From assembly GCA_963169675.1 (NCBI GenBank), contig CAUJFJ010000076.1, forward strand, positions 1-47,548: a DNA stretch of 47,548 nt, read 5' to 3'. Below, one piece after another: positions 20,381 to 38,367 of this stretch. A model generated the notes under the pieces. That model searched no databases. It worked only from the letters and a program-made list of their open reading frames with translations, and had not been told where the DNA came from. The position numbers and the translations under genes are program-made. Positions within the stretch are counted from its first letter, which is position 1; every line of letters begins with the position of its first letter. This DNA is from Bacteroidota bacterium (lineage in GTDB: Bacteria > Bacteroidota > Bacteroidia > AKYH767-A > OLB10).

Positions 20381-20767
20381 GTGAACAAAATCGTAATTTT
20401 AGAAGAAGATCAGGCAATCCCATCAGGAAATACCCGTAATACACGGGAGAATGGTGTTGATTGGAGATTGGCAGTGGATGCAGGAGAACTCGAGAGTAGT
20501 TTAATAATCGATAAACCTGCTTATACCGTTTATCTGGAGGGTAACAGAATATCTTTTCCTAAAAAAGAATTTGAATTGCTTTTGCTCCTTGCAACCAATC
20601 CCCGGAAGGTTTTTAAACGAAATGATATTCTTGAACATATTTGGGGAAAAGATTTCAAACAGAAAGATTCTCGTTCCCTGGATGTTCACATCAGAATGCT
20701 TCGGAAGAAGTTAAATGATAGTTATATCACGACCATAAGAGGAGTAGGGTATAAGCTGGAAAAATAA
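20381..20767 (+). CDS. Receiver-less PhoB/OmpR-type winged-helix protein
   Basis: A 128-residue protein whose residues about 45-128 are a complete Trans_reg_C winged helix, including FPKKEFELLLLLATNP, the recognition-helix segment DVHIRMLRKKL and the C-terminal RGVGYKLEK. By hand alignment about half of some 80 positions match the C-terminal domain of the PhoB-like protein at 27778. The N-terminus MNKIVILEEDQAIP resembles beta-1 and the acidic corner of a receiver domain, but the phosphorylated Asp and the rest of that domain are gone; about 30 unrelated residues join the two parts. It could bind PhoB sites without phosphorylation, as an activator, competitor or heterodimer partner. The start is GTG, 19 bp after the -7 element. 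Its promoter carries phased TTAAC repeats, and it converges on the pst operon. Confidence 0.8.
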   Translation: MNKIVILEEDQAIPSGNTRNTRENGVDWRLAVDAGELESSLIIDKPAYTVYLEGNRISFPKKEFELLLLLATNPRKVFKRNDILEHIWGKDFKQKDSRSLDVHIRMLRKKLNDSYITTIRGVGYKLEK

Positions 20768-20855: not shown

Positions 20856-21713
20856 TCAATATTTTACGGTTCGCTTTATTCTCAGGTAAACAGCTGCAGC
20901 ATTTAGCAGGAAGGTGATTCCAAGCAAAATGATAATCCCCGCCGAAGCATTTACCAGAAAGGCTGCTTGTGGTCGTGATACCCAATTGAAAATCTGGATG
21001 GGAAGTACTGTAAATTCAGAAGTGGGACTAGTAGGTACGAATGGAACATATGCCAATGCACCCACAACAATAAGTGGTGCCGCTTCCCCAATGGCACGAG
21101 AAATAGCAATGATGATTCCGGTAATAATTCCACTGCTTGCAGATGGAATAACGGTAGATTTTACTGTCTGCCATTTTGATGCACCCAAAGCATACGATGC
21201 TTCACGTAATGAACTTGGAACAGCTTTGATTGCTTCTCGTGTTGCTACAATAATAATAGGTAATATAAGCAGTGCCAAAGTAAAACTTCCTGCAAGTATG
21301 CTTCCACCCATTCCCATCATACGACCAAAAATTTCAAGTCCTAATAAACCATAAATAATAGATGGGACACCGGCGAGATTGGTAATATTGATTTCAATAA
21401 TTTTTCCTAATCTCGATTTTTTGGAGAATTCTTCGAGGTAAATAGCTGCACCAATTCCAATCGGAATAGCTGCAAGTGCTGTAATAACTATAATCCAAAG
21501 TGTTCCTGCCAAAGCGGAAAGAATACCTGCTTTTGCAGGATTTCGTGATGGATAGCTGGTGATGAAATCCCAACTGATCCTGGAAATTCCTTCACTAAAA
21601 ATACTTGAAATGAAAATGGCCAGCATAGCCAATCCGAAGAATGTGCAAAACATTCCGAATATTTTAAAGGAAGAATCTTTAAAACGTGAGATTTTCTCGA
21701 AGCGATTAGACAT
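20856..21713 (-). CDS. pstA: Phosphate ABC transporter permease PstA
   Basis: A 285-residue inner-membrane protein with six predicted helices. It is one of the two permease subunits of the high-affinity PstSCAB phosphate importer. The ABC-permease EAA loop is visible as EASYALGASKWQTVKSTVIPSASSGIITG, and the N-terminal GILSALAGTLWIIVITALAA helix is typical. Its start overlaps the end of pstC by 8 bp, indicating translational coupling. It is the last gene of the operon: the ATPase gene pstB and the regulator phoU, which normally follow, are absent, and 88 bp later a convergent gene ends. Confidence 0.93.
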   Translation of the reverse strand: MSNRFEKISRFKDSSFKIFGMFCTFFGLAMLAIFISSIFSEGISRISWDFITSYPSRNPAKAGILSALAGTLWIIVITALAAIPIGIGAAIYLEEFSKKSRLGKIIEINITNLAGVPSIIYGLLGLEIFGRMMGMGGSILAGSFTLALLILPIIIVATREAIKAVPSSLREASYALGASKWQTVKSTVIPSASSGIITGIIIAISRAIGEAAPLIVVGALAYVPFVPTSPTSEFTVLPIQIFNWVSRPQAAFLVNASAGIIILLGITFLLNAAAVYLRIKRTVKY

Positions 21714-22587
21714 ATTTTTTCTCGAGTTTTTTGTTCAGATAGTAACTGGCATTATTTAACATGAAGGTGAATACAAAAAGTGCAATTCCGGCAGCGAAAA
21801 TCGTACGGTATTCCAAGGAGTTATGTGCAACATCGCCTAAGCTAACCTGAACGATGTATGTAGTAATTGTTTCAATGGGCACGAATGGGTCCAAAGTTAA
21901 CTTCGGTTGTTGTCCCGCAGCAATTGCAACAATCATGGTTTCACCAATAGCTCTTGAAATTGCCAGAATTGCTGAGACAATAATTCCGGAAGATGCTGAT
22001 GGTATGATTACCTTAAATGCAGTTTGAAATCTGGTTGCTCCTAAGGCAAGTGATCCTTCACGGATATAACGTGGCACAGCTGAAATTGCATCGTCACTCA
22101 ATGAAGATACATATGGGATAATCATAATTCCCATTACAAATCCTGCAGAAAGGGAATTGAATCCCGACATGGAAGGAAAAATGGTTTGTAAAAAAGGAGT
22201 TACAATGGTGAGAGCAAAAAATCCATAAACAACCGTTGGTACGGATGCCAAAATTTCGAGTAATGGTTTGATGATATTTTTAAATCTTGGTGACGTGTAT
22301 TCATTCAGATAAAGTGCAATGGTTAATCCAATAGGAAGTGCAACCATAATTGCAATGAATGAAGTCAATAAAGTTCCGGTAAGCAAAGGTAAAATTCCGA
22401 AATGTTTATCGGCGAATAGAGGTGTCCATTGAGTATCGGTAAGGAAATCGACTATTGAAACTTCACTAAAAAACTGAAATGCTTCGAAAAGCAAAACATA
22501 TAAAATTCCTGCGGTGGTCAGGATGGTAAGCAGTGCACATGCTGCTAGTCCCAACTCAATCAGTTTTTCTTTATCTCGTTTTTTCAT
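21706..22587 (-). CDS. pstC: Phosphate ABC transporter permease PstC
   Basis: A 293-residue inner-membrane permease, partner of PstA. Features are an N-terminal helix (LGLAACALLTILTTAGILYV), the periplasmic SEVSIVDFLTDTQWTPLFADKHFGILPLLTGTL-type segment of PstC (family FLt..W.P), and the EAA loop REGSLALGATRFQTAFKVII. The ATG at 22585-22587 (MKKRDKEK) is chosen over an in-frame ATG at 22602, because that one lies inside the pstS-pstC hairpin and adds only five residues. It overlaps pstA by 8 bp. Confidence 0.92.
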   Translation of the reverse strand: MKKRDKEKLIELGLAACALLTILTTAGILYVLLFEAFQFFSEVSIVDFLTDTQWTPLFADKHFGILPLLTGTLLTSFIAIMVALPIGLTIALYLNEYTSPRFKNIIKPLLEILASVPTVVYGFFALTIVTPFLQTIFPSMSGFNSLSAGFVMGIMIIPYVSSLSDDAISAVPRYIREGSLALGATRFQTAFKVIIPSASSGIIVSAILAISRAIGETMIVAIAAGQQPKLTLDPFVPIETITTYIVQVSLGDVAHNSLEYRTIFAAGIALFVFTFMLNNASYYLNKKLEKKYV

Positions 22588-22594
22588 AACCAGG

Positions 22595-22623
22595 AAAAGC
22601 ATCCGCTATTAACGGATGCTTTT
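22595..22623 (-). terminator. Hairpin between pstS and pstC
   Basis: An 11-bp perfect stem, AAAAGCATCCG (22595-22605) with CGGATGCTTTT (22613-22623), around a 7-nt loop. It begins 23 bp after the pstS stop and ends 7 bp before the pstC start. Read on the minus strand, the stem ends in TTTT, so it can act as a leaky terminator or as a 3' stabiliser of the pstS message. Either would give more PstS than permease, as is common for binding-protein genes. Confidence 0.7.
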
Positions 22624-22646
22624 TAATTAATTATTATTAAACCAAC

Positions 22647-23627
22647 TTATTTTTTAACATGAGTGCTCATGAAGTCTTCATATTTCTTTTTCTGAGCAGC
22701 ATATTCTTCATCAGACATTGGAATAAATCCAACTTCTCTTGTAAGAGCTCCTGCATTATCAAGATAGAACTTTACAAATTCATTCACTTCCGGACGATCA
22801 ACAGCAACTGAATTAACATATACAAACAATGCTCTTGAAAGTGGTGCGTATGTTTTGTTTTTTACTGTTTCAACTGATGGAAGAATTGCTCCTGCGCCGT
22901 TTGCTTCATTTTCATCGTTCACCGGAACCAGTTTCAATTTTTCTTTGTTTTCTTCATAGTAAGCATATCCAAAAAATCCTAAAGCATTTTTGTCGCCTGC
23001 TACACCTTGTACTAAAATGTTGTCATCTTCACTTGCTGTATAATCACCGCGGCTTTTGTGGCTTTCACCAACAATAGCTTCTGTAAAATAATCATAGGTT
23101 CCTGATTCTGTTCCTGCACCATACAAATGGAATTCAGTGTCAGGCCATCCTGCACGGATCTGGCTCCATTTTGTGATTTTTCCTTGTGCTTCTGGTTCCC
23201 ACATTTTTTTCAATTCTGCAACTGTAATATCTTTAACCCAGTCGTTTGCAGGATTAATTACAACTGATAATCCATCATAAGCTACTTCAAGTTCTAAATA
23301 GTGAATGTTGTTAGCTTCACATGCTTTGCCTTCATCTTCTTTAATATGACGTGATGCATTGTTGATATCCGTTTCTCCTCTGCTGAATTTCTTGAATCCA
23401 CCACCGGTACCTGATAAACCAACAGTAACTTTCACATCAGGTTGAACTGAACGGAACTCTTCAGCAACAGCTTCCGAAATTGGATAAACTGTACTGGAAC
23501 CGTCAATTTTAACTTCTCCTTTTAATTTGTCAGAGGTTGATGCCGTTTCTTCCGTTTTTGGGGCACCACATGAAGCGAATAATGTTGTTCCCACAGCCAA
23601 AATCGCGATCAAAGATTTAATTTTCAT
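22647..23627 (-). CDS. pstS: Phosphate-binding lipoprotein PstS
   Basis: A 326-residue substrate-binding protein of the Pst importer. A lipoprotein signal ends at LFASC with Cys20, so it is probably anchored on the outer face of the inner membrane. Phosphate-contact motifs are present: [17 protein letters not shown] (about 43-59), [12 protein letters not shown] (about 74-85) and [16 protein letters not shown]. The Lys-rich C-terminus [16 protein letters not shown] is typical of this PstS subclass. It is the first gene of pstSCA, with a phased-repeat promoter about 80-135 bp upstream. Confidence 0.95.
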
Positions 23628-23705: not shown

Positions 23706-23761
23706 CAAATTTGTGCACTTAACATTGGATAAACATTAACCCTATGTTAAATTAATGTTAA
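23706..23761 (-). promoter_or_regulatory. Pho-type promoter of pstSCA
   Basis: On the minus strand TTAAC starts at 23761 and 23750, TTAAT at 23739 and the weak CCAAT at 23728, a strict 11-bp series. The likely -7 element CAAATTTG (one mismatch to TAnnTTTG) starts at 23713. Offsets are 48, 37, 26 and 15 bp. The predicted leader before pstS is about 75 nt. Confidence 0.7.
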
Positions 23762-23853
23762 CATTATTATGTTATTGATAATGAAATAAATAGATCGTTT
23801 TCAGCTTTCAATTTTCACTGATTTTCATCATATTTTCTGCGATGGGAATGAAT

Positions 23854-27661: not shown

Positions 27662-27715
27662 CTCCGTTTTTTGTCTTCTTAAACCGGCATACTTTAAGGA
27701 TTTGGAGTAAATTTG

Positions 27716-27777: not shown

Positions 27778-28461
27778 ATGAATCCTGAGAAGATAAAAAT
27801 ACTGTTGGTAGACGATGAGCCGGATATTCTTGAGTTTATGGAATATAATCTGAAGAAAGAGGGATTTCAAACACTTTGTGCCCGTAACGGGGAAGAGGCA
27901 GTAGAATTAGCCATCAAGAACAAACCGGATCTTATTATTTTAGACATCATGATGCCGGTGTTGGATGGAATTGAAGCCTGCAGAATGATACGGAACAATG
28001 CAGAAACCAAGAATGTACTAATAGCTTTTCTCACGGCCCGCAATGAAGATTATTCGCAAATTGCAGGATTCGATGTTGGTGCCGACGATTATATCAGTAA
28101 ACCCATAAAGCCCCGTGTATTAATCAGCCGCATTAAAGCTCTTTTACGACGTTCGGGAACAGAATCGGGAAGTGATGATTTTGTGAAAATCGGAAACCTG
28201 GAAATTGACCGGGAGAAATATCGGGTAAGCAGTAATGGTTTGGAACTTACCTTCCCACGAAAAGAATTTGAACTTTTATCGTTGTTAATTTCAAAACCTG
28301 GCAAGGTATTTACCCGCGAAGAAATAATGACCAAAGTATGGGGCGACGACATTATAGTTGGCGATCGTACGATTGATGTGCATATCCGGAAAATCAGAGA
28401 AAAACTTGGTGATGAATCAATTAAAACCATCAAGGGTGTTGGTTACAAGTTTGATGCATAG
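27778..28461 (+). CDS. phoB: PhoB-type phosphate response regulator
   Basis: A 227-residue OmpR/PhoB-family regulator. The receiver domain (about 5-122) has acidic residues D12-D13, the phosphorylation site Asp56 in LIILDIMMPVLDG, the Thr of AFLTAR and the Lys of YISKPIKP. The winged-helix domain (about 135-227) has FPRKEFELLSLL, the recognition segment RTIDVHIRKIREKL and KGVGYKFDA. The phosphate role is inferred from context: it is followed by a PhoR-like kinase, lies in the same window as pstSCA, ppk1 and ppx, and its own promoter has the TTAAC grid. A second protein with nearly the same DNA-binding domain but no receiver is encoded at 20381. Confidence 0.88.
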   Translation: MNPEKIKILLVDDEPDILEFMEYNLKKEGFQTLCARNGEEAVELAIKNKPDLIILDIMMPVLDGIEACRMIRNNAETKNVLIAFLTARNEDYSQIAGFDVGADDYISKPIKPRVLISRIKALLRRSGTESGSDDFVKIGNLEIDREKYRVSSNGLELTFPRKEFELLSLLISKPGKVFTREEIMTKVWGDDIIVGDRTIDVHIRKIREKLGDESIKTIKGVGYKFDA

Positions 28462-28531: not shown

Positions 28532-29581
28532 TTGAATACGCACAAACCCCGTAGAATAGCACTGAACACGGCCTTTTCCATTTCAGTGGTCGCTGCAATT
28601 CTGATGGCCACCTTGCTATGGTATCTGCAAGTCGAGAAATGGTATTTGCTGGCAGTAATAACTCTGGTTTTATTGCTCATCACTACATTTCTATTTATCA
28701 ATTATGCTCTCGATAAATATTTTTATCAAAACATCCGAATCATTTACAAGAACATTCTGCAACTAAAGAATGCTCAAGGTAAAACTATTGGAAAGAAAAT
28801 TGCAGATGAGCATGTGCTTCCTGAAATCAATAAAATTCTGATTGAATGGGAGCAAGGCAATAAAGATGAGATTGTACATCTGAAGGAATTGGAATCGTTC
28901 CGCAAAGAGTTTTTAGGAAATGTTTCTCACGAATTAAAAACTCCGATTTTCACGATTCAGGGTTACATTCATACCTTGATTGATGGAGGAATAGAAGATC
29001 AGGAAATTAATATGCTTTATCTCCAGAAAGCAGGCAAGAGTATCGACCGATTAATTTCCATAGTGGATGACCTGGAATCAATTTCAAAACTGGAAGCCGG
29101 AGAACTCATTCTTGAAAACAGAACATTTGATATTCATGAACTTGTTTTGGATGTGATGGAGTCTCTTGAATTAAAAGCAAAAGAGAACAATATTACACTG
29201 TCATTGAAGGAAAAGGAAACCGGCAAAGTGTATGTTTACGCAGATAAAGACCGCATCAGACAAGTGCTGGTGAATTTGCTGGTGAATTCTATTAAATACG
29301 GGAAAAGAAGTGGTGCAACTGAGGTTGATATTGATCAGAATGATGACGACGTAGTGATTGAAGTGAAAGATAATGGCATTGGAATTGAAAAGCATCACTT
29401 GAGTCGCTTGTTTGAAAGATTTTATCGCGTTGATAAAAGCAGATCACGGGAACAAGGTGGTACCGGACTTGGTCTGGCAATTGTGAAACACATTATGGAA
29501 GCCCACTCACAAAAAATTAACGTTGAAAGTACACCGGGCATTGGAACTACTTTTACCTTTACCTTAAAGAAAAGCAGATGA
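28532..29581 (+). CDS. phoR: PhoR-type sensor histidine kinase
   Basis: A 349-residue membrane kinase. Two adjacent helices (about 10-31 and 36-57) leave only a few residues outside the membrane, so it has no periplasmic sensing domain, as in PhoR proteins that sense through the Pst system. The cytoplasmic part has the HisKA box FLGNVSHELKTPIF with His133, then the N box VNLLVNSIKYG, G1 VKDNGIGIEKHHLSRLFERFYRVD, and G2 GGTGLGLAIVKHI. A PAS domain, usual in E. coli PhoR, is not evident between the helices and His133. The start is TTG; the first ATG would fall inside the first helix. It is 70 bp downstream of phoB. Confidence 0.87.
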   Translation: MNTHKPRRIALNTAFSISVVAAILMATLLWYLQVEKWYLLAVITLVLLLITTFLFINYALDKYFYQNIRIIYKNILQLKNAQGKTIGKKIADEHVLPEINKILIEWEQGNKDEIVHLKELESFRKEFLGNVSHELKTPIFTIQGYIHTLIDGGIEDQEINMLYLQKAGKSIDRLISIVDDLESISKLEAGELILENRTFDIHELVLDVMESLELKAKENNITLSLKEKETGKVYVYADKDRIRQVLVNLLVNSIKYGKRSGATEVDIDQNDDDVVIEVKDNGIGIEKHHLSRLFERFYRVDKSRSREQGGTGLGLAIVKHIMEAHSQKINVESTPGIGTTFTFTLKKSR

Positions 29582-30679: not shown

Positions 30680-32728
30680 ATGAAAATAAAGGAAATTCCA
30701 TTAGTTAACCGGGAATTAAGCTGGTTATCATTTAATGAGCGGGTATTGCAGGAAGCTGCAGATCCGCTCGTTCCATTGCTGGAGCGTTTACGTTTTCTCG
30801 GTATTTACTCCAATAACAGGGATGAATTTTTCAGGGTCCGTGTTGCCACTGTAAAGCGGTTGACGAAATTTGATAAACATCTTCGCATTTTGCAAGGTGA
30901 AAAACCTGTTGAATTGCTTGAAAATATTCAAAGAGTAATTCTGAAGCAACAGGAGAAGTTTGAAAAAATATTTCAGGGCATCCAGAAAGAATTGCATCAA
31001 CGGAAAATTCATATGGTTGATGAGTCTCAGTTAAACCCTGTTCAGGGACGTTTTGTGCGAAGCTATTTTAAGTCGCATGTACAACCTGTTTTATTTCCTG
31101 TTATACTTGGTCCCGGAAATCCATTTCCTTATCTGAAGGATAAATCCATTTATCTGATTATTCGTCTTCAAAAGAAAGGCAAAGATCCCAGATATGCATT
31201 GATTGAAGTTCCTTCAAAGCTAATTTCCCGGTTCCTTTTATTGCCTTCCAATAAGAATGAAAATCATTTGATTCTGCTGGAAGATGTGATCCGTTATAAT
31301 CTCGATGACATCTTTGCCATTTTCGATTTCGATAAAATAGATTCATACATCATTAAGATTACCCGTGATGCTGAACTAGATCTCGATAATGATCTCAGCA
31401 AAAGCTTTCTGGAGAAAATAAGTAAATCCATCAAGAACCGGAAGAAAGGTTTACCGGTACGATTGGCATACGATGGTAAGCTATCGAAAGATATGATGGA
31501 TATGCTAATCACGAGAATGAAATTCCGGAAATTTGATAATCTTATTCCCGGTGGACGTATTCATAACTTCAAAGATTTTATTCGATTCCCGGACATTGGT
31601 TCGCCAACCTTAAAATATCGTAAAAATAAGCCTCTCGACCATCCGGCATTTCATAATGGAGGATCACTCTTTCCGGTAATTGCAAAAAAGGATGTATTGC
31701 TATTCTTCCCTTATCAATCCTATCACTACATTTTGGATTTGCTCCGTGAAGCATCTATTGATCCCAAAGTGGAAAGTATAAAAATTACGCTTTACAGACT
31801 TGCCAACAATTCCATCATTGCAAATGCACTCATAAATGCGTTGAAGAATGGAAAATCCGTTACTGCAGTTGTGGAGTTACAGGCGAGATTTGATGAAGAA
31901 TCGAATATTTACTGGGCAAATCAGCTGCAGGAGGAAGGTGCTACCGTCATATTTGGTGTGCCCGGATTAAAAGTTCATTCCAAATTGTTTCTGATTACCC
32001 GTAAGGAAGGAAATCAGATTACACGTTACGCGCATATTGGAACGGGTAATTTCAATGAAGAAACAGCTGGATTATATTCGGATATCAGTCTGCTGACTGT
32101 TGATCAGCGTATCACCGATGAGGTTGTAAAATTGTTTAATTTTTATGCGAACAATTATAAAATCGGAAGCTACAAACATTTATTGGTTGCACCCTGGGAT
32201 ATGCGCAAACGTTATATCGCACTTATCAATAAGGAAATTGCCAACCACAGAGCCGGAAAACCAGCTTATATATGGCTTAAGTTAAACAGTCTGGTAGATG
32301 AGGAAATGATTTCCCGCCTGTATGTTGCCAGCTCGGAAGGAGTGCCTGTGAAATTAATCATCAGAGGCATTTGTTCCCTGGTGCCCGGAGTTAAGGGTTT
32401 AAGTGAAAATATTGAAGTAATAAGCATTGTAGACAAATTCCTGGAACACAGCAGAATTTTAATTTTCTGTAATGAAGGGGATGAGAAAATTTATCTGGCT
32501 TCTGCCGATTGGATGAGCCGGAACCTGGATCATCGTTCTGAAGTGGCTGTACCGGTATATGATAAAAGTCTGCAAAAGCAACTTAAAGATTTTATTCAAT
32601 TGCAATTTAAGGATAATTGCAAAGCCAGGTTGATTAATCAGCAGCAGGATAATCAATATGTTAAGTCAAGTTCCAAAGTCAGGGTCAGATCACAGGATGA
32701 ATTTTACAAATTGTTACTAAAAAAGTGA
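30680..32728 (+). CDS. ppk1: Polyphosphate kinase 1
   Basis: A 682-residue PPK1, which reversibly polymerises the terminal phosphate of ATP into polyphosphate. The N-terminal domain opens with VNRELSWLSFNERVLQEAAD and the substrate-interaction segment SNNRDEFFRVRVATVKRL. The two phospholipase-D-like catalytic histidines are His433 in GLKVHSKLFLI, taken as the autophosphorylated residue, and His618 in NLDHRSEVAVPVYD. The ARIGTGNFNEETA-type motif of the family appears as AHIGTGNFNEETAGLYSD. The length is normal. It starts 6 bp after the H1-like gene and is followed by ppx after 40 bp. It acts in the cytoplasm. Confidence 0.96.
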   Translation: MKIKEIPLVNRELSWLSFNERVLQEAADPLVPLLERLRFLGIYSNNRDEFFRVRVATVKRLTKFDKHLRILQGEKPVELLENIQRVILKQQEKFEKIFQGIQKELHQRKIHMVDESQLNPVQGRFVRSYFKSHVQPVLFPVILGPGNPFPYLKDKSIYLIIRLQKKGKDPRYALIEVPSKLISRFLLLPSNKNENHLILLEDVIRYNLDDIFAIFDFDKIDSYIIKITRDAELDLDNDLSKSFLEKISKSIKNRKKGLPVRLAYDGKLSKDMMDMLITRMKFRKFDNLIPGGRIHNFKDFIRFPDIGSPTLKYRKNKPLDHPAFHNGGSLFPVIAKKDVLLFFPYQSYHYILDLLREASIDPKVESIKITLYRLANNSIIANALINALKNGKSVTAVVELQARFDEESNIYWANQLQEEGATVIFGVPGLKVHSKLFLITRKEGNQITRYAHIGTGNFNEETAGLYSDISLLTVDQRITDEVVKLFNFYANNYKIGSYKHLLVAPWDMRKRYIALINKEIANHRAGKPAYIWLKLNSLVDEEMISRLYVASSEGVPVKLIIRGICSLVPGVKGLSENIEVISIVDKFLEHSRILIFCNEGDEKIYLASADWMSRNLDHRSEVAVPVYDKSLQKQLKDFIQLQFKDNCKARLINQQQDNQYVKSSSKVRVRSQDEFYKLLLKK

Positions 32729-32768: not shown

Positions 32769-33686
32769 TTGAATAATCGGGAAATACTACGTTTTGCTGC
32801 TGTCGACATAGGCTCCAATGCCATCCGTCTGCTTCTGTGTAACGTTTACGAAGGAGGGGAGGAGCCGTTATTTAAAAAAGCCGAATTAATTCGTTTCCCG
32901 CTCCGCCTGGGTGAAGATGCTTTTCTCAAAGGCTATATTGCCGATGATACCATCAACAAGCTGGTTAAGGTAATGTGTGCCTTCCGTTCACTTATTGATG
33001 CGTATGATGTGATTTCCTACAGAATTTGCGCCACATCAGCCATGCGTGAAGCCGCCAACAGAAAAGAAGTAATTGACAGGGTATTTAAAGAATCTGGACT
33101 TACCATTGAAGTAATTGACGGACGTACTGAAGCGGAAATTATTTATTCTAATCATATAGCAGAAAATCTTGAAAGCAATAATTCCTATCTCTATATTGTT
33201 GTTGGTGGTGGTAGTACAGAGTTAACTCTTTTCTCGAAAGGAAAATTTATTTCAAGTGGATCTTACAATATTGGAACCATCAGAATGCTCCATGATAAAG
33301 TAACACGTGATCAATGGCGCGATTTTAAAGATCATGTTCGCAAGCTTGCAGTTGGCAATCAACCCATGGTTGCCATTGGCTCCGGTGGGAATATCAATAA
33401 AATATTCAAACTCGCCAATCGCAAAGAAAATCAGGTGTTGTCATTTGCCAAATTAAAAGAGGTGTATGAGTATGTAAGCACATTCACTCTCGAACAACGC
33501 ATCACTGATCTTAAACTCAATCCCGATCGTGCCGATGTTATCTTGCCTGCATTTCGTGTTTTTATTGCTGTGATGAAAGCAGCACAGATTGATGGAATCA
33601 GAGTGCCGCAGGTGGGTCTTTCAGATGGTATTGTTCATCTTTTGTATGAACGCTACAAAAAGCAAATTTTGACCGGAGTTTTTTAA
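32769..33686 (+). CDS. ppx: Exopolyphosphatase / pppGpp phosphohydrolase family protein
   Basis: A 305-residue protein of the Ppx/GppA branch of the ASKHA superfamily, which removes terminal phosphates from polyphosphate (some members act on pppGpp). ATPase-fold motifs are AAVDIGSNAIRLLL (phosphate 1), CATSAMREAANRKEV, the YIVVGGGSTELTLF phosphate-2 motif and AIGSGGNINKIFKLA. It is the short form without the C-terminal HD-like domain of E. coli Ppx (about 510 residues). The start is TTG at 32769, giving MNNREILRFAAVDIGS; no better in-frame ATG precedes the phosphate-1 motif. It pairs with ppk1 for polyphosphate turnover. Confidence 0.92.
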   Translation: MNNREILRFAAVDIGSNAIRLLLCNVYEGGEEPLFKKAELIRFPLRLGEDAFLKGYIADDTINKLVKVMCAFRSLIDAYDVISYRICATSAMREAANRKEVIDRVFKESGLTIEVIDGRTEAEIIYSNHIAENLESNNSYLYIVVGGGSTELTLFSKGKFISSGSYNIGTIRMLHDKVTRDQWRDFKDHVRKLAVGNQPMVAIGSGGNINKIFKLANRKENQVLSFAKLKEVYEYVSTFTLEQRITDLKLNPDRADVILPAFRVFIAVMKAAQIDGIRVPQVGLSDGIVHLLYERYKKQILTGVF

Positions 33687-33834: not shown

Positions 33835-33890
33835 TTAACAATGAATTAACCTGACTGTAACAATCAGTTAATTTGGTATGTATTTTTTTG
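33835..33890 (+). promoter_or_regulatory. Pho-type promoter of the TonB receptor gene
   Basis: TTAAC at 33835 and 33846, GTAAC at 33857 and TTAAT at 33868 form four 11-bp repeats. The -7 element is TTTTTTTG at 33883-33890 (one mismatch). Offsets are 48, 37, 26 and 15 bp. The ATG follows 58 bp after the -7. Confidence 0.65.
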
Positions 33891-33948: not shown

Positions 33949-36795
33949 ATGAAAAAGATTCTATCACTTGCAGTATTTATCCTTTGCTTATCGGTTACAC
34001 TGCATGCTCAAACAGGTTCCATCAGCGGTCGTATTATGGATGGTACAACTAAAACTCCATTACCCGGAGCCAGTGTTGTAATTGATGGTACCACTCAAGG
34101 TGCTATGACAGATCTGGATGGCTTGTTCAAAATTACTTCAGTACAACCCGGAAAAGTTAATTTGAAAATCAGCTACGTTGGTTATGTAACGCAATTGCTT
34201 TCAGGAGTAGAAGTTACATCTGGTAATGATACCAAGATAGAATTAAAACTTGTAGAAAATGTTAGTCAGTTGCAAGGAGCTGATGTAGTCGCACAAAGAA
34301 GCACACATACCGAAAATGCCGTTTTAATGGAGGTAAAACAAAGCGAGCAAATTATCAGCGGTGTTTCGAGTCAGCAAATAGGCAGATCACAAGACCGTAC
34401 GGCTGGTGAAGTAATTCGCAGAGTGCCCGGTGTAACTTTAATGGATAATGGTTTTGTGTTGATCCGTGGTTTGAATGAACGTTATAACACTGTTTTACTG
34501 AATGGAATTATAGCACCCAGCATGGAAGCCGATAAGAAAGCTTTCACATTAGATGTAATTCCTGCAGGTATGCTCGATCGTTTAATGGTTTATAAAACGG
34601 GTTCTCCCGAACTTCCTGGTGAGTTTGCAGGTGGTGTGATTAAAATTGTTACCAAAAATGTTTCTGAAGAAGATCAGTTTACAATTGGCTATACCAGTGG
34701 TGTGAGAGCTAATACCACCTTCAACGATTTTTATCAGGCACCAAAAGGTAATTCAGACTGGTTGGGAAGAGATGATGGCACCAGAAGTTTACCCGGTAGC
34801 TTTCCTACCAGTTTGTATGATATAAAAGATCCCGGTCAGCTAGCTGATTTAGGAAAGAAATTACCCAATGCATGGACTTCAGCAAAAATTCAGGCAGCTC
34901 CCGATCAAAGATTCAGTGCTTCCTTGATAAAGAATTTAAAGTTCGGCAAAATGAAAGCCGCAAATATTACAGCATTGCAATATGGAATGACTTTCGATTC
35001 TTATGAAGCACAAAATTTAGGTTTCAATTCGTATGATCTGAATACACAGCAAAGTGATACCATTTATGATTATAACGACCGCATGTATCGTGAAAATGTT
35101 CGTTTGTCATTACTTCACAACTGGACTTTCCTGGTTTCACCGGCCACAAAAATTGAATTCCGTAATTTCTTTAATCAACAAGGTTCTAACCAATCCATTT
35201 TGAGAACCGGTTCAAACTTTGAAGAAGGAAGTCTTGTAAAAAGTTATGCATACCGTTATCAGGAGCGTACTGTGTATAGCGGACAGTTGCATGGTTCACA
35301 TGAAATTAATGCCAACAGAACTAAAATCGACTGGACAGCAGCTTATTCCTATTCACATTCTGCAGAACCTGATTTTAGAAGAATCAGAACAAAAAAAGAC
35401 ATCAGTGCAACATCTGACAGCATTCCTTATCAGGTTGTAATTGCTCCTTCAGCTTCAACTATTGATGCAGGAAGATTTTATTCCGACCTCACTGAAAATA
35501 CAGGCAGCGGAGCACTTGATTTTGAACATGCTTTAAAATCGAAAGCAGATTTATTGATACCAAAATTCAGAGCCGGAGTTTATGTGGAATCGAAACAACG
35601 TGAATTCAGTGCCCGCTGGATGTCGTACAAACAATCGAAAATCACAGGTTTCGATAATTCACTTCTTTATTTGCCACTCGATCAGATTTTCGCTCCTGAG
35701 AACATTAATGATTCCACAGGATTTAAATTAGAAGAAGGAACTAATCCAAGTGATAAATATAGTGCATACAATTCGCTTACTGCTGGATATGCCGCATTAT
35801 CGTGGCCCATCACTGAGAAGTTCAATGTTTCAGGTGGGGTAAGAATTGAGCATAATATTCAGCAATTAGAGAGTCGTTCCTATACCAATGCAAAAATTAC
35901 GGTTGATAATACTATCACAAGTATTTTGCCTTCTGTTAATCTCTCCTACAACTTTACACAGAAAATGCTGGTTCGTGTTGCTTATGCACAAACAGTCAAC
36001 AGACCTGAATTCCGTGAACTTGCACCTTTCGCTTATTATGATTTTACTTTTAACAATGTATTAATCGGAAACAGTGAATTAAAAACACCAACCATTCAGA
36101 ATTTCGATGTGCGATGGGAGTTGTATCCTTCCAATAGTGAAATGATATCGATCGGTGCATTCTATAAAGATTTTCACAATCCGATTGAAATGTTTTTTGT
36201 CCCCGGTTCAGGTTCCGGAGGAACCAGAAACTTCACTTACAACAACGCTGATAAAGCTACAAGTTTAGGTTTTGAAATTGAAGTTAAGAAATATTTCATC
36301 TCGTTGTTTGATACCACAGGAAAAGATCAGGGCTTGTTTATTCGTCGTTTTGTAAGTCGTTTAGGATTAACTGCCAATGCAGCATGGATTGACAGTGAAG
36401 TGAAACTGGGTAACAAAGCTGTCGGTCAAAGTGAAAACAGACCAATGATGGGACAGTCACCATACATTTTCAATGTTGGACTATTTTTCTCGAATGTAGA
36501 AAAGAAATTCCAGGTTACTGCTTTGTACAATACAATCGGTAAAAGAATCTTTGCTGTTGGTACTTATGGTACTCCCGATATTTACTACATGCCACGACAC
36601 AGTATTGATTTGACTGTTACCAAAGGAATTGGAAAGCGCCTTGAAGTTAAGGCCGGCGTACAGGATTTGCTTGCACAGGATGAAGTTTACCAGCAGGATT
36701 CCAATGAAGATGGTAAGATAAATACTACTGATGAGAAGGTATTTGTAATCAGAAGAGGGGCTTATTATTCTCTTGGTTTTAATTTAAAATTCTAA
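33949..36795 (+). CDS. TonB-dependent outer-membrane receptor with CRD domain
   Basis: A 948-residue outer-membrane transporter. The signal peptide is about 1-21; a carboxypeptidase-regulatory-like domain covers about 23-102 (GSISGRIMDGTTKTPLPGAS); the plug domain is about 120-235 with GEVIRRVPGVTLMDNGFVLI and GEFAGGVIKIVTKNV; and a 22-strand barrel ends in the aromatic strand AYYSLGFNLKF. It is energised by TonB-ExbB-ExbD to import scarce ligands. It is not next to a susD gene; instead a beta-helix lipoprotein gene follows. The loop ERYNTVLLNG with MEADKKAFTLDVIPAG is typical of a Bacteroidota receptor subfamily I cannot assign to a substrate by sequence. The phased TTAAC promoter and the neighbouring phosphate genes suggest phosphate or a phosphorus compound. 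Confidence 0.88.
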   Translation: MKKILSLAVFILCLSVTLHAQTGSISGRIMDGTTKTPLPGASVVIDGTTQGAMTDLDGLFKITSVQPGKVNLKISYVGYVTQLLSGVEVTSGNDTKIELKLVENVSQLQGADVVAQRSTHTENAVLMEVKQSEQIISGVSSQQIGRSQDRTAGEVIRRVPGVTLMDNGFVLIRGLNERYNTVLLNGIIAPSMEADKKAFTLDVIPAGMLDRLMVYKTGSPELPGEFAGGVIKIVTKNVSEEDQFTIGYTSGVRANTTFNDFYQAPKGNSDWLGRDDGTRSLPGSFPTSLYDIKDPGQLADLGKKLPNAWTSAKIQAAPDQRFSASLIKNLKFGKMKAANITALQYGMTFDSYEAQNLGFNSYDLNTQQSDTIYDYNDRMYRENVRLSLLHNWTFLVSPATKIEFRNFFNQQGSNQSILRTGSNFEEGSLVKSYAYRYQERTVYSGQLHGSHEINANRTKIDWTAAYSYSHSAEPDFRRIRTKKDISATSDSIPYQVVIAPSASTIDAGRFYSDLTENTGSGALDFEHALKSKADLLIPKFRAGVYVESKQREFSARWMSYKQSKITGFDNSLLYLPLDQIFAPENINDSTGFKLEEGTNPSDKYSAYNSLTAGYAALSWPITEKFNVSGGVRIEHNIQQLESRSYTNAKITVDNTITSILPSVNLSYNFTQKMLVRVAYAQTVNRPEFRELAPFAYYDFTFNNVLIGNSELKTPTIQNFDVRWELYPSNSEMISIGAFYKDFHNPIEMFFVPGSGSGGTRNFTYNNADKATSLGFEIEVKKYFISLFDTTGKDQGLFIRRFVSRLGLTANAAWIDSEVKLGNKAVGQSENRPMMGQSPYIFNVGLFFSNVEKKFQVTALYNTIGKRIFAVGTYGTPDIYYMPRHSIDLTVTKGIGKRLEVKAGVQDLLAQDEVYQQDSNEDGKINTTDEKVFVIRRGAYYSLGFNLKF

Positions 36796-36849
36796 TCGAT
36801 TTTATTTCATTTTCAGCTAAGCACCGATTTATTTAAATCTGAAGATGAA

Positions 36850-36905
36850 TTAACCTAATCACTATTTAGTTTTAATGTTTAAGTAACATTAACACCTTTA
36901 TTTTG
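36850..36905 (+). promoter_or_regulatory. Pho-type promoter of the beta-helix lipoprotein gene
   Basis: TTAAC at 36850, TTAAT at 36872 and GTAAC at 36883 lie on the 11-bp grid (slot 36861 empty). The -7 element is TTATTTTG at 36898-36905 (one mismatch). Offsets are 48, 26 and 15 bp. It allows separate induction from the receptor gene upstream. Confidence 0.6.
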
Positions 36906-36934
36906 CCTCTGAAATCAAACATAAAACAGTAACC

Positions 36935-38305
36935 ATGAACATGAAACAAACTTCAAAAAGAATCGCAGGACTCAGCAGTATGATGCTGACCATGCTTGCC
37001 CTTGCTGCAATCACCATCGTAGGATGTAAAAAAGATGATGACGATGCTACTACACCAACTCCAACCGGAACAACTATTGAAATATCCGGTGACCTCACTA
37101 CTAACACTAACTGGACAGCCATCAATAAATATGTATTGAAAGGATTCGTTTATGTTAAAGATGGTGCTACCCTGAATATTGAAGCTGGTACCGTAATTAA
37201 AGGAGACAAAGCAACTAAAGGAACACTAATCATTGAAAGAGGTGGTAAAATTAATGCAGTAGGAACAGCTGCTAAGCCTATTGTATTTACATCTAATGAA
37301 GCTGCAGGAAGCCGTTCTTATGGTGACTGGGGTGGTATTATCATTTGTGGTCGTGCACCAATTAACTTGCCTGGTGGCGAAGGAACCGTAGAAGGTGGAA
37401 CAAATGCACTTTATGGTGGAACAAATGCAACTGACGATTCAGGAAAATTGAAATATGTACGTATTGAATTTTGCGGAATAGCATTTCAACCAAATCAGGA
37501 AATTAATGGTTTGACACTTGGTGGAGTAGGATCAACTACAGAAATTTCAAATATACAGGTTTCTTACAGTGGTGATGATTCATATGAAATGTTTGGTGGT
37601 ACTGTAAACCTGAAAAATATTGTCGCTTACCGTGGTTGGGATGATGATTTTGATACAGACAACGGATATATTGGTAAAATTCAGTTTGCACTTGCTTTAC
37701 GCGATAAAGATATTGCTGATCAATCAGGTTCAAATGGTTTTGAATCAGATAATGATGGTTCAGGAACTACCGCAACTCCTTATACAAAACCAATCTTCTC
37801 GAATGTAACTGTATTTGGTCCGATGGAAAATTCATCAACTACCACAAATTCACTTTACAAAAGAGCTGCTCATTTAAGAAGAAATACACAAACATGTATT
37901 TATAATTCTGTTTTTGCAGGATATCCTACAGGATTATTCATTGATGGTTCTTCAACAGAATCTAATGCTGCAGCAGCAGATCTTCAATTCAGAAATAATA
38001 TCATTGCCGGTTGTACAACTCCATTATCTGCAAGTGCATCATTCGATATTCAGGCTTGGTTCAATACACCATCTTTCGCAAATACGTTGCTTACCAATTC
38101 AACAGACATTCAATGTGGTTATCCGTTCGATTTGCTTTCACCTGATTTTCTGCCACAAACTTCTTCGCCATTATTAAGTGGTGCCGATTTCTCTAACAGC
38201 AACTTGCAAGGATTCTTCACTTCAGTTTCTTATCGTGGTGCATTTGGTACAACCGACTGGACAGAAGAGTGGTGTAATTTCGATCCACAAAATACTGCTT
38301 ACTAA
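36935..38305 (+). CDS. Surface lipoprotein with right-handed beta-helix, partner of the TonB receptor
   Basis: A 456-residue exported lipoprotein. The signal peptide ends at TIVGC with Cys31, followed by KKDDDDATT; acidic residues just after the Cys resemble the export signal that sends Bacteroidota lipoproteins to the cell surface. Residues about 50-330 have the stacked short strands of a beta-helix (GAGT/GATL-type turns, VGTAAKPIVFTSNEA, GDWGGIIICGRAP, GLTLGGVGSTTEISNIQVSYSG). An acidic stretch GWDDDFDTDNGYIG could bind Ca2+. There is no T9SS sorting domain. The start may be 36935 or the ATG at 36941. It follows the receptor by 139 bp, has its own phased-repeat promoter and ends at a strong terminator. 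I infer a surface ligand-capture partner in place of SusD. Confidence 0.8.
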   Translation: MNMKQTSKRIAGLSSMMLTMLALAAITIVGCKKDDDDATTPTPTGTTIEISGDLTTNTNWTAINKYVLKGFVYVKDGATLNIEAGTVIKGDKATKGTLIIERGGKINAVGTAAKPIVFTSNEAAGSRSYGDWGGIIICGRAPINLPGGEGTVEGGTNALYGGTNATDDSGKLKYVRIEFCGIAFQPNQEINGLTLGGVGSTTEISNIQVSYSGDDSYEMFGGTVNLKNIVAYRGWDDDFDTDNGYIGKIQFALALRDKDIADQSGSNGFESDNDGSGTTATPYTKPIFSNVTVFGPMENSSTTTNSLYKRAAHLRRNTQTCIYNSVFAGYPTGLFIDGSSTESNAAAADLQFRNNIIAGCTTPLSASASFDIQAWFNTPSFANTLLTNSTDIQCGYPFDLLSPDFLPQTSSPLLSGADFSNSNLQGFFTSVSYRGAFGTTDWTEEWCNFDPQNTAY

Positions 38306-38335
38306 GACATTATTAATAGTTGGGTTTATTAATAA

Positions 38336-38367
38336 AGGAGTCACCTCTCAGGTGGCTCCTTTTTTTG
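38336..38367 (+). terminator. Rho-independent terminator after the receptor-lipoprotein pair
   Basis: An 11-bp stem, AGGAGTCACCT (38336-38346) with AGGTGGCTCCT (38350-38360) and one G-T pair, holds the loop CTC. It is followed by TTTTTT and a further TTT after a G. It lies 31 bp after the lipoprotein stop. Confidence 0.88.

Follow-up and report, generated by a model that had tools for sequence, protein, structure and literature searches.

Contig CAUJFJ010000076.1 of a Bacteroidota bacterium (assembly GCA_963169675.1; all 47,548 nucleotides were analysed and are called the window here) carries a gene for a TonB-dependent receptor and, next to it, a gene for a lipoprotein predicted to form a right-handed beta-helix. 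A sequence-only reading of the window had proposed these two genes as an outer-membrane uptake pair of phosphate starvation. We find it very likely, judging mainly from sequence, that the pair is controlled by phosphate starvation, because a Pho-box-like operator is common to pstS and the receptor gene, this box is enriched phylum-wide before homologous genes, and Pst, Pit, PhoBR or Ppk genes recur in the neighbourhood; induction by low phosphate (Pi) has moreover been published for the comparable lipoproteins ElpS, FI and FII and for the receptors of FI and FII. The pair and the sites that carry this conclusion are as follows.

33949..36795, + strand: TonB-dependent receptor, 948 aa, with CarbopepD_reg_2, Plug and TonB_dep_Rec barrel domains
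36935..38305, + strand: putative surface lipoprotein of the ElpS / FI-FII kind by description, 456 aa, right-handed beta-helix model, lipobox
38334..38362, + strand: intrinsic terminator closing the pair, 13-bp stem plus T run
33835..33876, + strand: Pho-box-like operator of the receptor, four TTAACA-like units with 11-bp period, score 21.1, z 6.8
36850..36891, + strand: weak Pho-box-like site before the lipoprotein, score 17.5, z 2.7, P 0.015
23723..23764, - strand: Pho-box-like operator of pstS, 11-bp-phased TTAACA repeat as at the receptor, z 4.7

On the + strand the order is ppk1, ppx, receptor, lipoprotein, and both reading frames of the pair lie where the earlier reading had placed them, directly after ppk1-ppx. 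The identity of the receptor is borne out by its three domains; TIGR01782 matches it partially, below that family's cut-off, and the lipoprotein has no match in Pfam or NCBIfam. The lipobox ends at Cys31 (codon 37025-37027) and is followed by KKDDDD, the acidic residues that had been noticed after this cysteine. The terminator behind the lipoprotein gene is the strongest of the region, in agreement with the claim that a single strong terminator closes the unit. A sigma-70 scan was uninformative, with fewer promoter-like sites in the sequence than in shuffles (12 vs 16.4).

Pho-box-like repeats in the genome

Sites upstream of genes were given z values against shuffles (400 for the receptor site). 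The receptor's site is the best four-unit site in the window and the second-best cluster precedes pstS, so that the two genes have a PhoB/PhoP-type operator in common, as members of one Pho regulon should. In Riemerella, also of the Bacteroidota, the most conserved part of the PhoP motif is TTTAACA (PMC9603813). A site with z 2.4 lies before the response regulator gene at 27778..28461. When scored against shuffles, the upstream regions of ppk1 and ppx have no such box, and it is absent before 18 other TonB-receptor genes of the same genome, where z is at most 2.1. The exact pattern KTAAY, three times with period 11, occurs at five sites across the genome vs seven for the reversed control, and downstream of two of the five (C54:2105 and C180:12262) no phosphate gene is evident. 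These counts alone are not significant; the specificity of the box is carried by the scored upstream regions.

Conservation of the pair and its box

From a scan of public genomes we took 80 loci, chosen by similarity, and, because of that choice, added a second, independent sample, 38 loci in genomes from across the phylum; p-values are descriptive, since related sequences are not independent. The co-occurrence of the two families was confirmed, with a receptor homolog directly adjoining the lipoprotein in 67 of the 72 loci (among 80) where this was visible. The lipoprotein family was found in 196/296 sampled genomes of the Bacteroidota phylum (113/140 genera) and spans Bacteroidota and Alpha- and Gammaproteobacteria, and the pair too is present in both proteobacterial classes.

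Upstream of receptors the box has a median z of 3.56 (n 85) vs 0.21 upstream of 680 other genes in these loci (p 1.7e-21), and upstream of lipoproteins a median of 2.48 (n 109; p 2.8e-18 against the same genes). The phylum sample gave the same picture, with z 3.95 at receptors vs -0.14 at other genes (p 3.8e-16) and values above 3 in 71% of receptors vs 4% of other genes; 31% of lipoproteins exceeded this value (p 1.8e-9). The period is specific, the mean best score of receptors being 17.3 at 11 bp vs 14.2-14.9 at other periods. Among proteobacterial pairs, Escherichia coli-type Pho boxes were suggestive before the lipoproteins of loci L012, L015 and L006 only (P 0.007-0.03, 14 tests), and none was found at the pair of L013.

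The lipoprotein family varies in architecture. Two genomes, G278 and G262, have single frames of ~2,320 aa with four tandem beta-helix lipoprotein domains (e.g., G278:C12:8223-14474), and two-copy versions occur in several others. A paralog in the same genome as the window (L002 / G000:C111:19858-21132) shares 38% identity with the lipoprotein where the two match; its signal peptide is of the ordinary type, and its neighbours are large secreted proteins, with no receptor beside it. A homolog on a Hymenobacter plasmid (L003 7863-9296) is labelled 'cell shape-determining protein MreB', apparently a misannotation.

Phosphate genes around the pair

Other genes of phosphate metabolism and its regulation lie in the same window.

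30680..32728, + strand: ppk1, polyphosphate kinase, no Pho-box of its own
32769..33686, + strand: ppx/gppA-type exopolyphosphatase, no Pho-box of its own
27778..28461, + strand: PhoB/PhoP-type OmpR-family response regulator, weak box upstream at 27694
28532..29581, + strand: PhoR-type histidine kinase
20856..23627, - strand: pstS-pstC-pstA, high-affinity phosphate importer, without pstB/phoU

The OmpR-family regulator is the probable activator of the receptor/lipoprotein pair, and a regulator 72% identical to it adjoins the homologous pair in locus L017. Distances to pst and pho genes across the Bacteroidota, which the earlier reading had named as a check, show Pst, Pit, PhoBR or Ppk to be recurrent neighbours. 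Sixteen relatives have both a close lipoprotein homolog and PstB above its cut-off, and in eight of them the two are within 3-8 kb of each other on one contig, where we estimate about 0.1 to be expected by chance. In 13/80 loci, a gene for Pst, PhoU, Pit or DUF47 is found at a distance of up to 10 kb (about 1-2 expected by chance, again by our estimate); a PhoB-like regulator is nearby in 13/80, and either it or one of these genes in 21/80. Some loci have the pair beside Pit instead of Pst. Linkage to another nutrient, which had been named as a refuting observation, does not recur among the immediate neighbours: a scan of 207 genes flanking the pair gave no recurrent theme of this kind.

Single loci illustrate how dense this linkage can be. 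In G173, a genome of another family, PhoBR, a metallophosphoesterase, Ppx, Ppk1, the lipoprotein, the receptor, DUF47 and Pit lie in one stretch, and an Alteromonas plasmid carries, in this order, phoB, phoR, a phosphate-binding protein, a 2-oxoglutarate oxygenase, the lipoprotein, the receptor, DUF3450, two ExbB-type genes, ExbD, TonB and a TPR protein. The pair adjoins a DUF3450-TtpC-ExbB-ExbD-TonB set in Alteromonas (L012 12231-17227, with phoB-phoR) and in Pseudoalteromonas (L006 998-4736), a layout that suggests a TonB complex dedicated to phosphate starvation. Alphaproteobacterial pairs are followed by genes of the type II secretion system (T2SS), in the order lipoprotein-receptor-T2SS. 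Linkage to Ppk was rejected as a rule, as none of the 80 loci has ppk1 or ppx within 10 kb; it is occasional, being found in this genus (including G001, with ppk1 similarly placed), in G173 (ppk1-ppx) and in G053 (ppk1 5.4 kb from the homolog).

The pst genes of this genome are split, pstB and phoU lying together on another contig (C72, 1549-3031), and in the same-genus genome G001 pstB and the lipoprotein are likewise on different contigs. Just past the end of pstA, a 128-aa open reading frame (20381-20767), itself preceded by a Pho-box-like site (z 3.45), seems to encode no more than the DNA-binding portion of a regulator of the PhoB type; it is possibly a remnant or a stand-alone domain.

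Structural models and conserved residues

The beta-helix that had been proposed for the lipoprotein is also what structure prediction returned, the model having a mean predicted local distance difference test score (pLDDT) of 95.9. Its matches in the PDB, namely NosD (Z 23.5), AlgE epimerases (AlgE4), Pel9A (22.8) and PL6 lyases, have the same right-handed beta-helix fold at Z 22-23.5; they differ in having only 10-16% identity and other surroundings, and none stands out clearly from the rest. A PDB sequence search with the lipoprotein profile gave no match, and no Pfam family was found on the lipoprotein core, the similarity to carbohydrate-active beta-helix enzymes being at fold level only. 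Seven acidic residues are the same in all 65 homologs compared, which represent several phyla: D214, D215, E218, D236, D237, D240 and E270. The groups D214/D215/E218 and D236/D237/D240 are spaced by 22 residues, which by the strands of the model equals one coil of the helix, and should therefore stack into an acidic ladder; from this stacking, the modelled ladder is probably a Ca2+ site.

By a simple pattern a lipobox was found in 42/57 homologs, of which 21 have at least three acidic residues among the next eight, and 7/65 homologs have a sorting tail of the type IX secretion system (T9SS). The KKDDDD of the window lipoprotein, the acidic stretches of its homologs and the T9SS tails are all in keeping with a position at the cell surface. 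For the receptor, prediction gave a TonB-receptor fold of the ordinary type (pLDDT 87.4), with BtuB as the closest match (Z 36); the BtuB of BtuB-BtuG complexes is matched as well (Z 32).

Relation to known systems

A lipoprotein and receptor of phosphate starvation have been published before (PMC2996285, PMC8115612), and the idea is not new; the present analysis adds the phylum-wide box, the counts of linkage and the confident beta-helix model with its invariant acidic ladder. In Caulobacter crescentus, the surface lipoprotein ElpS (CC0170) is produced only when Pi is lacking; its gene adjoins that of the TonB receptor CC0171, and the same paper noted homologs in Bacteroides (PMC2996285). The alphaproteobacterial homologs found here have the Caulobacter gene order, and the window pair resembles ElpS/CC0171 in joining a lipoprotein to an adjacent receptor and, very probably, in its link to phosphate starvation. 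Unlike the window pair, that of Caulobacter has T2SS genes behind it, the release of ElpS depends on the T2SS, and CC0171 was reported constitutive; the T2SS and a number of TonB receptors belong to the Caulobacter PhoB regulon (PMC11208175).

In Flavobacterium johnsoniae, FI (Fjoh_3856/3857) and FII (Fjoh_0545/0546, in the phoBR operon) are likewise lipoproteins with adjacent receptors, all among the genes and proteins most strongly induced by low Pi, and FI and FII resemble ElpS in sequence and are predicted to have a polygalacturonase-like structure (PMC8115612). They lie near phoBR or a Ppk-like gene, a pectin-lyase fold (IPR011050) is given for FII, and their clusters hold more genes, whereas the window pair stands beside ppk1-ppx with pst some 13 kb away. 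An adjacent TonB receptor is present in the window as in 67/72 loci, and so are the lipobox and the surface-export signature (Cys31, KKDDDD). The window pair is very probably a member of the ElpS / FI-FII kind, to which it is matched by description.

SusCD and Pus systems also combine a TonB receptor with a surface lipoprotein, and PusCD is induced by low Pi in F. johnsoniae (PMC8115612). They differ from the window pair in both partners. A SusC-type receptor was rejected (TIGR04056, 57.6 bits vs a cut-off of 368), and so was a SusD-family lipoprotein, there being no SusD domain or other Pfam match and a beta-helix model instead. BtuB-BtuG of Bacteroides thetaiotaomicron (8blw, 8bmx), a TonB receptor with a non-SusD surface lipoprotein as in the window, appears the better analogue. 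BtuG binds cobalamin, unlike the candidate role of the window lipoprotein. Its fold, a beta-propeller, is also different.

Proposed function and alternatives

The sites, the pairing, the linkage, the modelled fold and the conserved acidic ladder described above can be joined into a full outer-membrane uptake mechanism of the ElpS / FI-FII kind with a phosphorus ligand, towards which we lean with limited confidence. When phosphate is scarce, a PhoBR-type regulator would bind the 11-bp-phased TTAACA repeats and turn on the receptor, and probably the lipoprotein too. The lipoprotein would be exported to the cell surface, where the acidic ladder of its beta-helix, probably with Ca2+ bound, may capture a phosphorus-containing ligand and present it to the adjacent receptor; this, as its family suggests, would move the ligand into the periplasm by TonB energy, where Pst or Pit could take it over. 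We propose that the pair works by analogy with BtuB-BtuG, and not as a member of SusCD. Inorganic phosphate, or else a polymer or other compound rich in phosphate, is the most likely ligand; a sugar or an iron chelate is less so.

Several observations weigh against this account. Its uptake role is argued from family and analogy. The earlier reading had given each gene a phased-repeat promoter of its own, which stands for the receptor and is only marginal for the lipoprotein, whose site reached a shuffle P of 0.015; homologous lipoproteins often have a stronger box. The pairs of gut Parabacteroides and Phocaeicola were scored for the box and have none, and Caulobacter CC0171, besides its reported constitutive expression, could be deleted without abolishing ElpS production (PMC2996285). 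Across the 65 homologs no Lys, Arg or His is invariant (R315 is Arg in 92%), and acidic residues conserved without basic ones look unlike a direct phosphate-binding site, so that a bridging metal has to be assumed for phosphate binding. Among 61 related genomes, PstB is equally frequent with and without a close lipoprotein homolog (16/24 vs 25/37). Pst co-occurrence was thus rejected as a genome-level marker of the pair, and Pst is not needed for it; the claim that Pst and the pair form one regulon is borne out in this window and in several relatives, yet does not apply in general.

The lipoprotein could instead be an extracellular hydrolase, or activate one, by which phosphate is released from phosphorylated polymers, with the receptor importing the fragments or merely co-regulated. 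Right-handed beta-helices are common to polysaccharide lyases, hydrolases and epimerases, the lipoprotein has its invariant acidic cluster, and overexpressed ElpS raises secreted alkaline phosphatase activity; purified ElpS, however, has no phosphatase activity, and its authors favour an activator over an enzyme (PMC2996285). We regard this alternative as improbable, given that the family has no invariant His or basic catalytic residue and that the tight one-to-one adjacency to the receptor fits a transport partner better. Somewhat less probable again is the import of a trace metal, siderophore or oligosaccharide needed in phosphate starvation, in which case control by PhoB would be real and the substrate not phosphorus. 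In favour are the requirement of PhoX-type phosphatases for Ca and Fe and the likeness, at fold level only, of the receptor model to receptors for cobalamin and siderophores. Beta-helices commonly bind glycans. Plant cell-wall glycans have been proposed for FI and FII (PMC8115612). Yet it is phosphate transport genes, and not iron, cobalamin or glycan-degradation genes, that recur beside the pair, and the phosphorus-responsive loci of F. johnsoniae without assigned function are tightly repressed under N and Fe limitation (PMC8115612).

Specific import of polyphosphate, a linear polyanion that the ladder would bind through Ca2+ and that the nearby ppk1-ppx would process, we consider quite unlikely. 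It draws on ppk1-ppx being adjacent both here and in the unrelated G173, on the placement of ppk1 in G001 and G053, and on the Ppk-like gene of the F. johnsoniae FI cluster (PMC8115612), but neither gene lies near the pair in the 80 other loci, both are without the box in the window, and Ppk1 is cytoplasmic and makes polyphosphate.

Implications

Entry of phosphate across the outer membrane is usually credited to porins. The uptake mechanism favoured here might, as a tentative and rather doubtful extension, represent a third architecture of Bacteroidota outer-membrane importers, in which a receptor works with a Ca2+-laddered beta-helix lipoprotein to import phosphate or phosphate polymers. If true, this architecture would be common to Proteobacteria as well, be present in about two thirds of Bacteroidota-phylum genomes, stand beside its own TonB-ExbBD set in Alteromonadales, and serve generally to bring phosphorus across the outer membrane with TonB energy. 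The occurrence of the lipoprotein family in 196/296 genomes, together with a PhoB-type operator before most sampled receptors, suggests that energised uptake of phosphorus compounds is common, and the receptor/lipoprotein pair offers a well-defined target for finding the compound that is imported.

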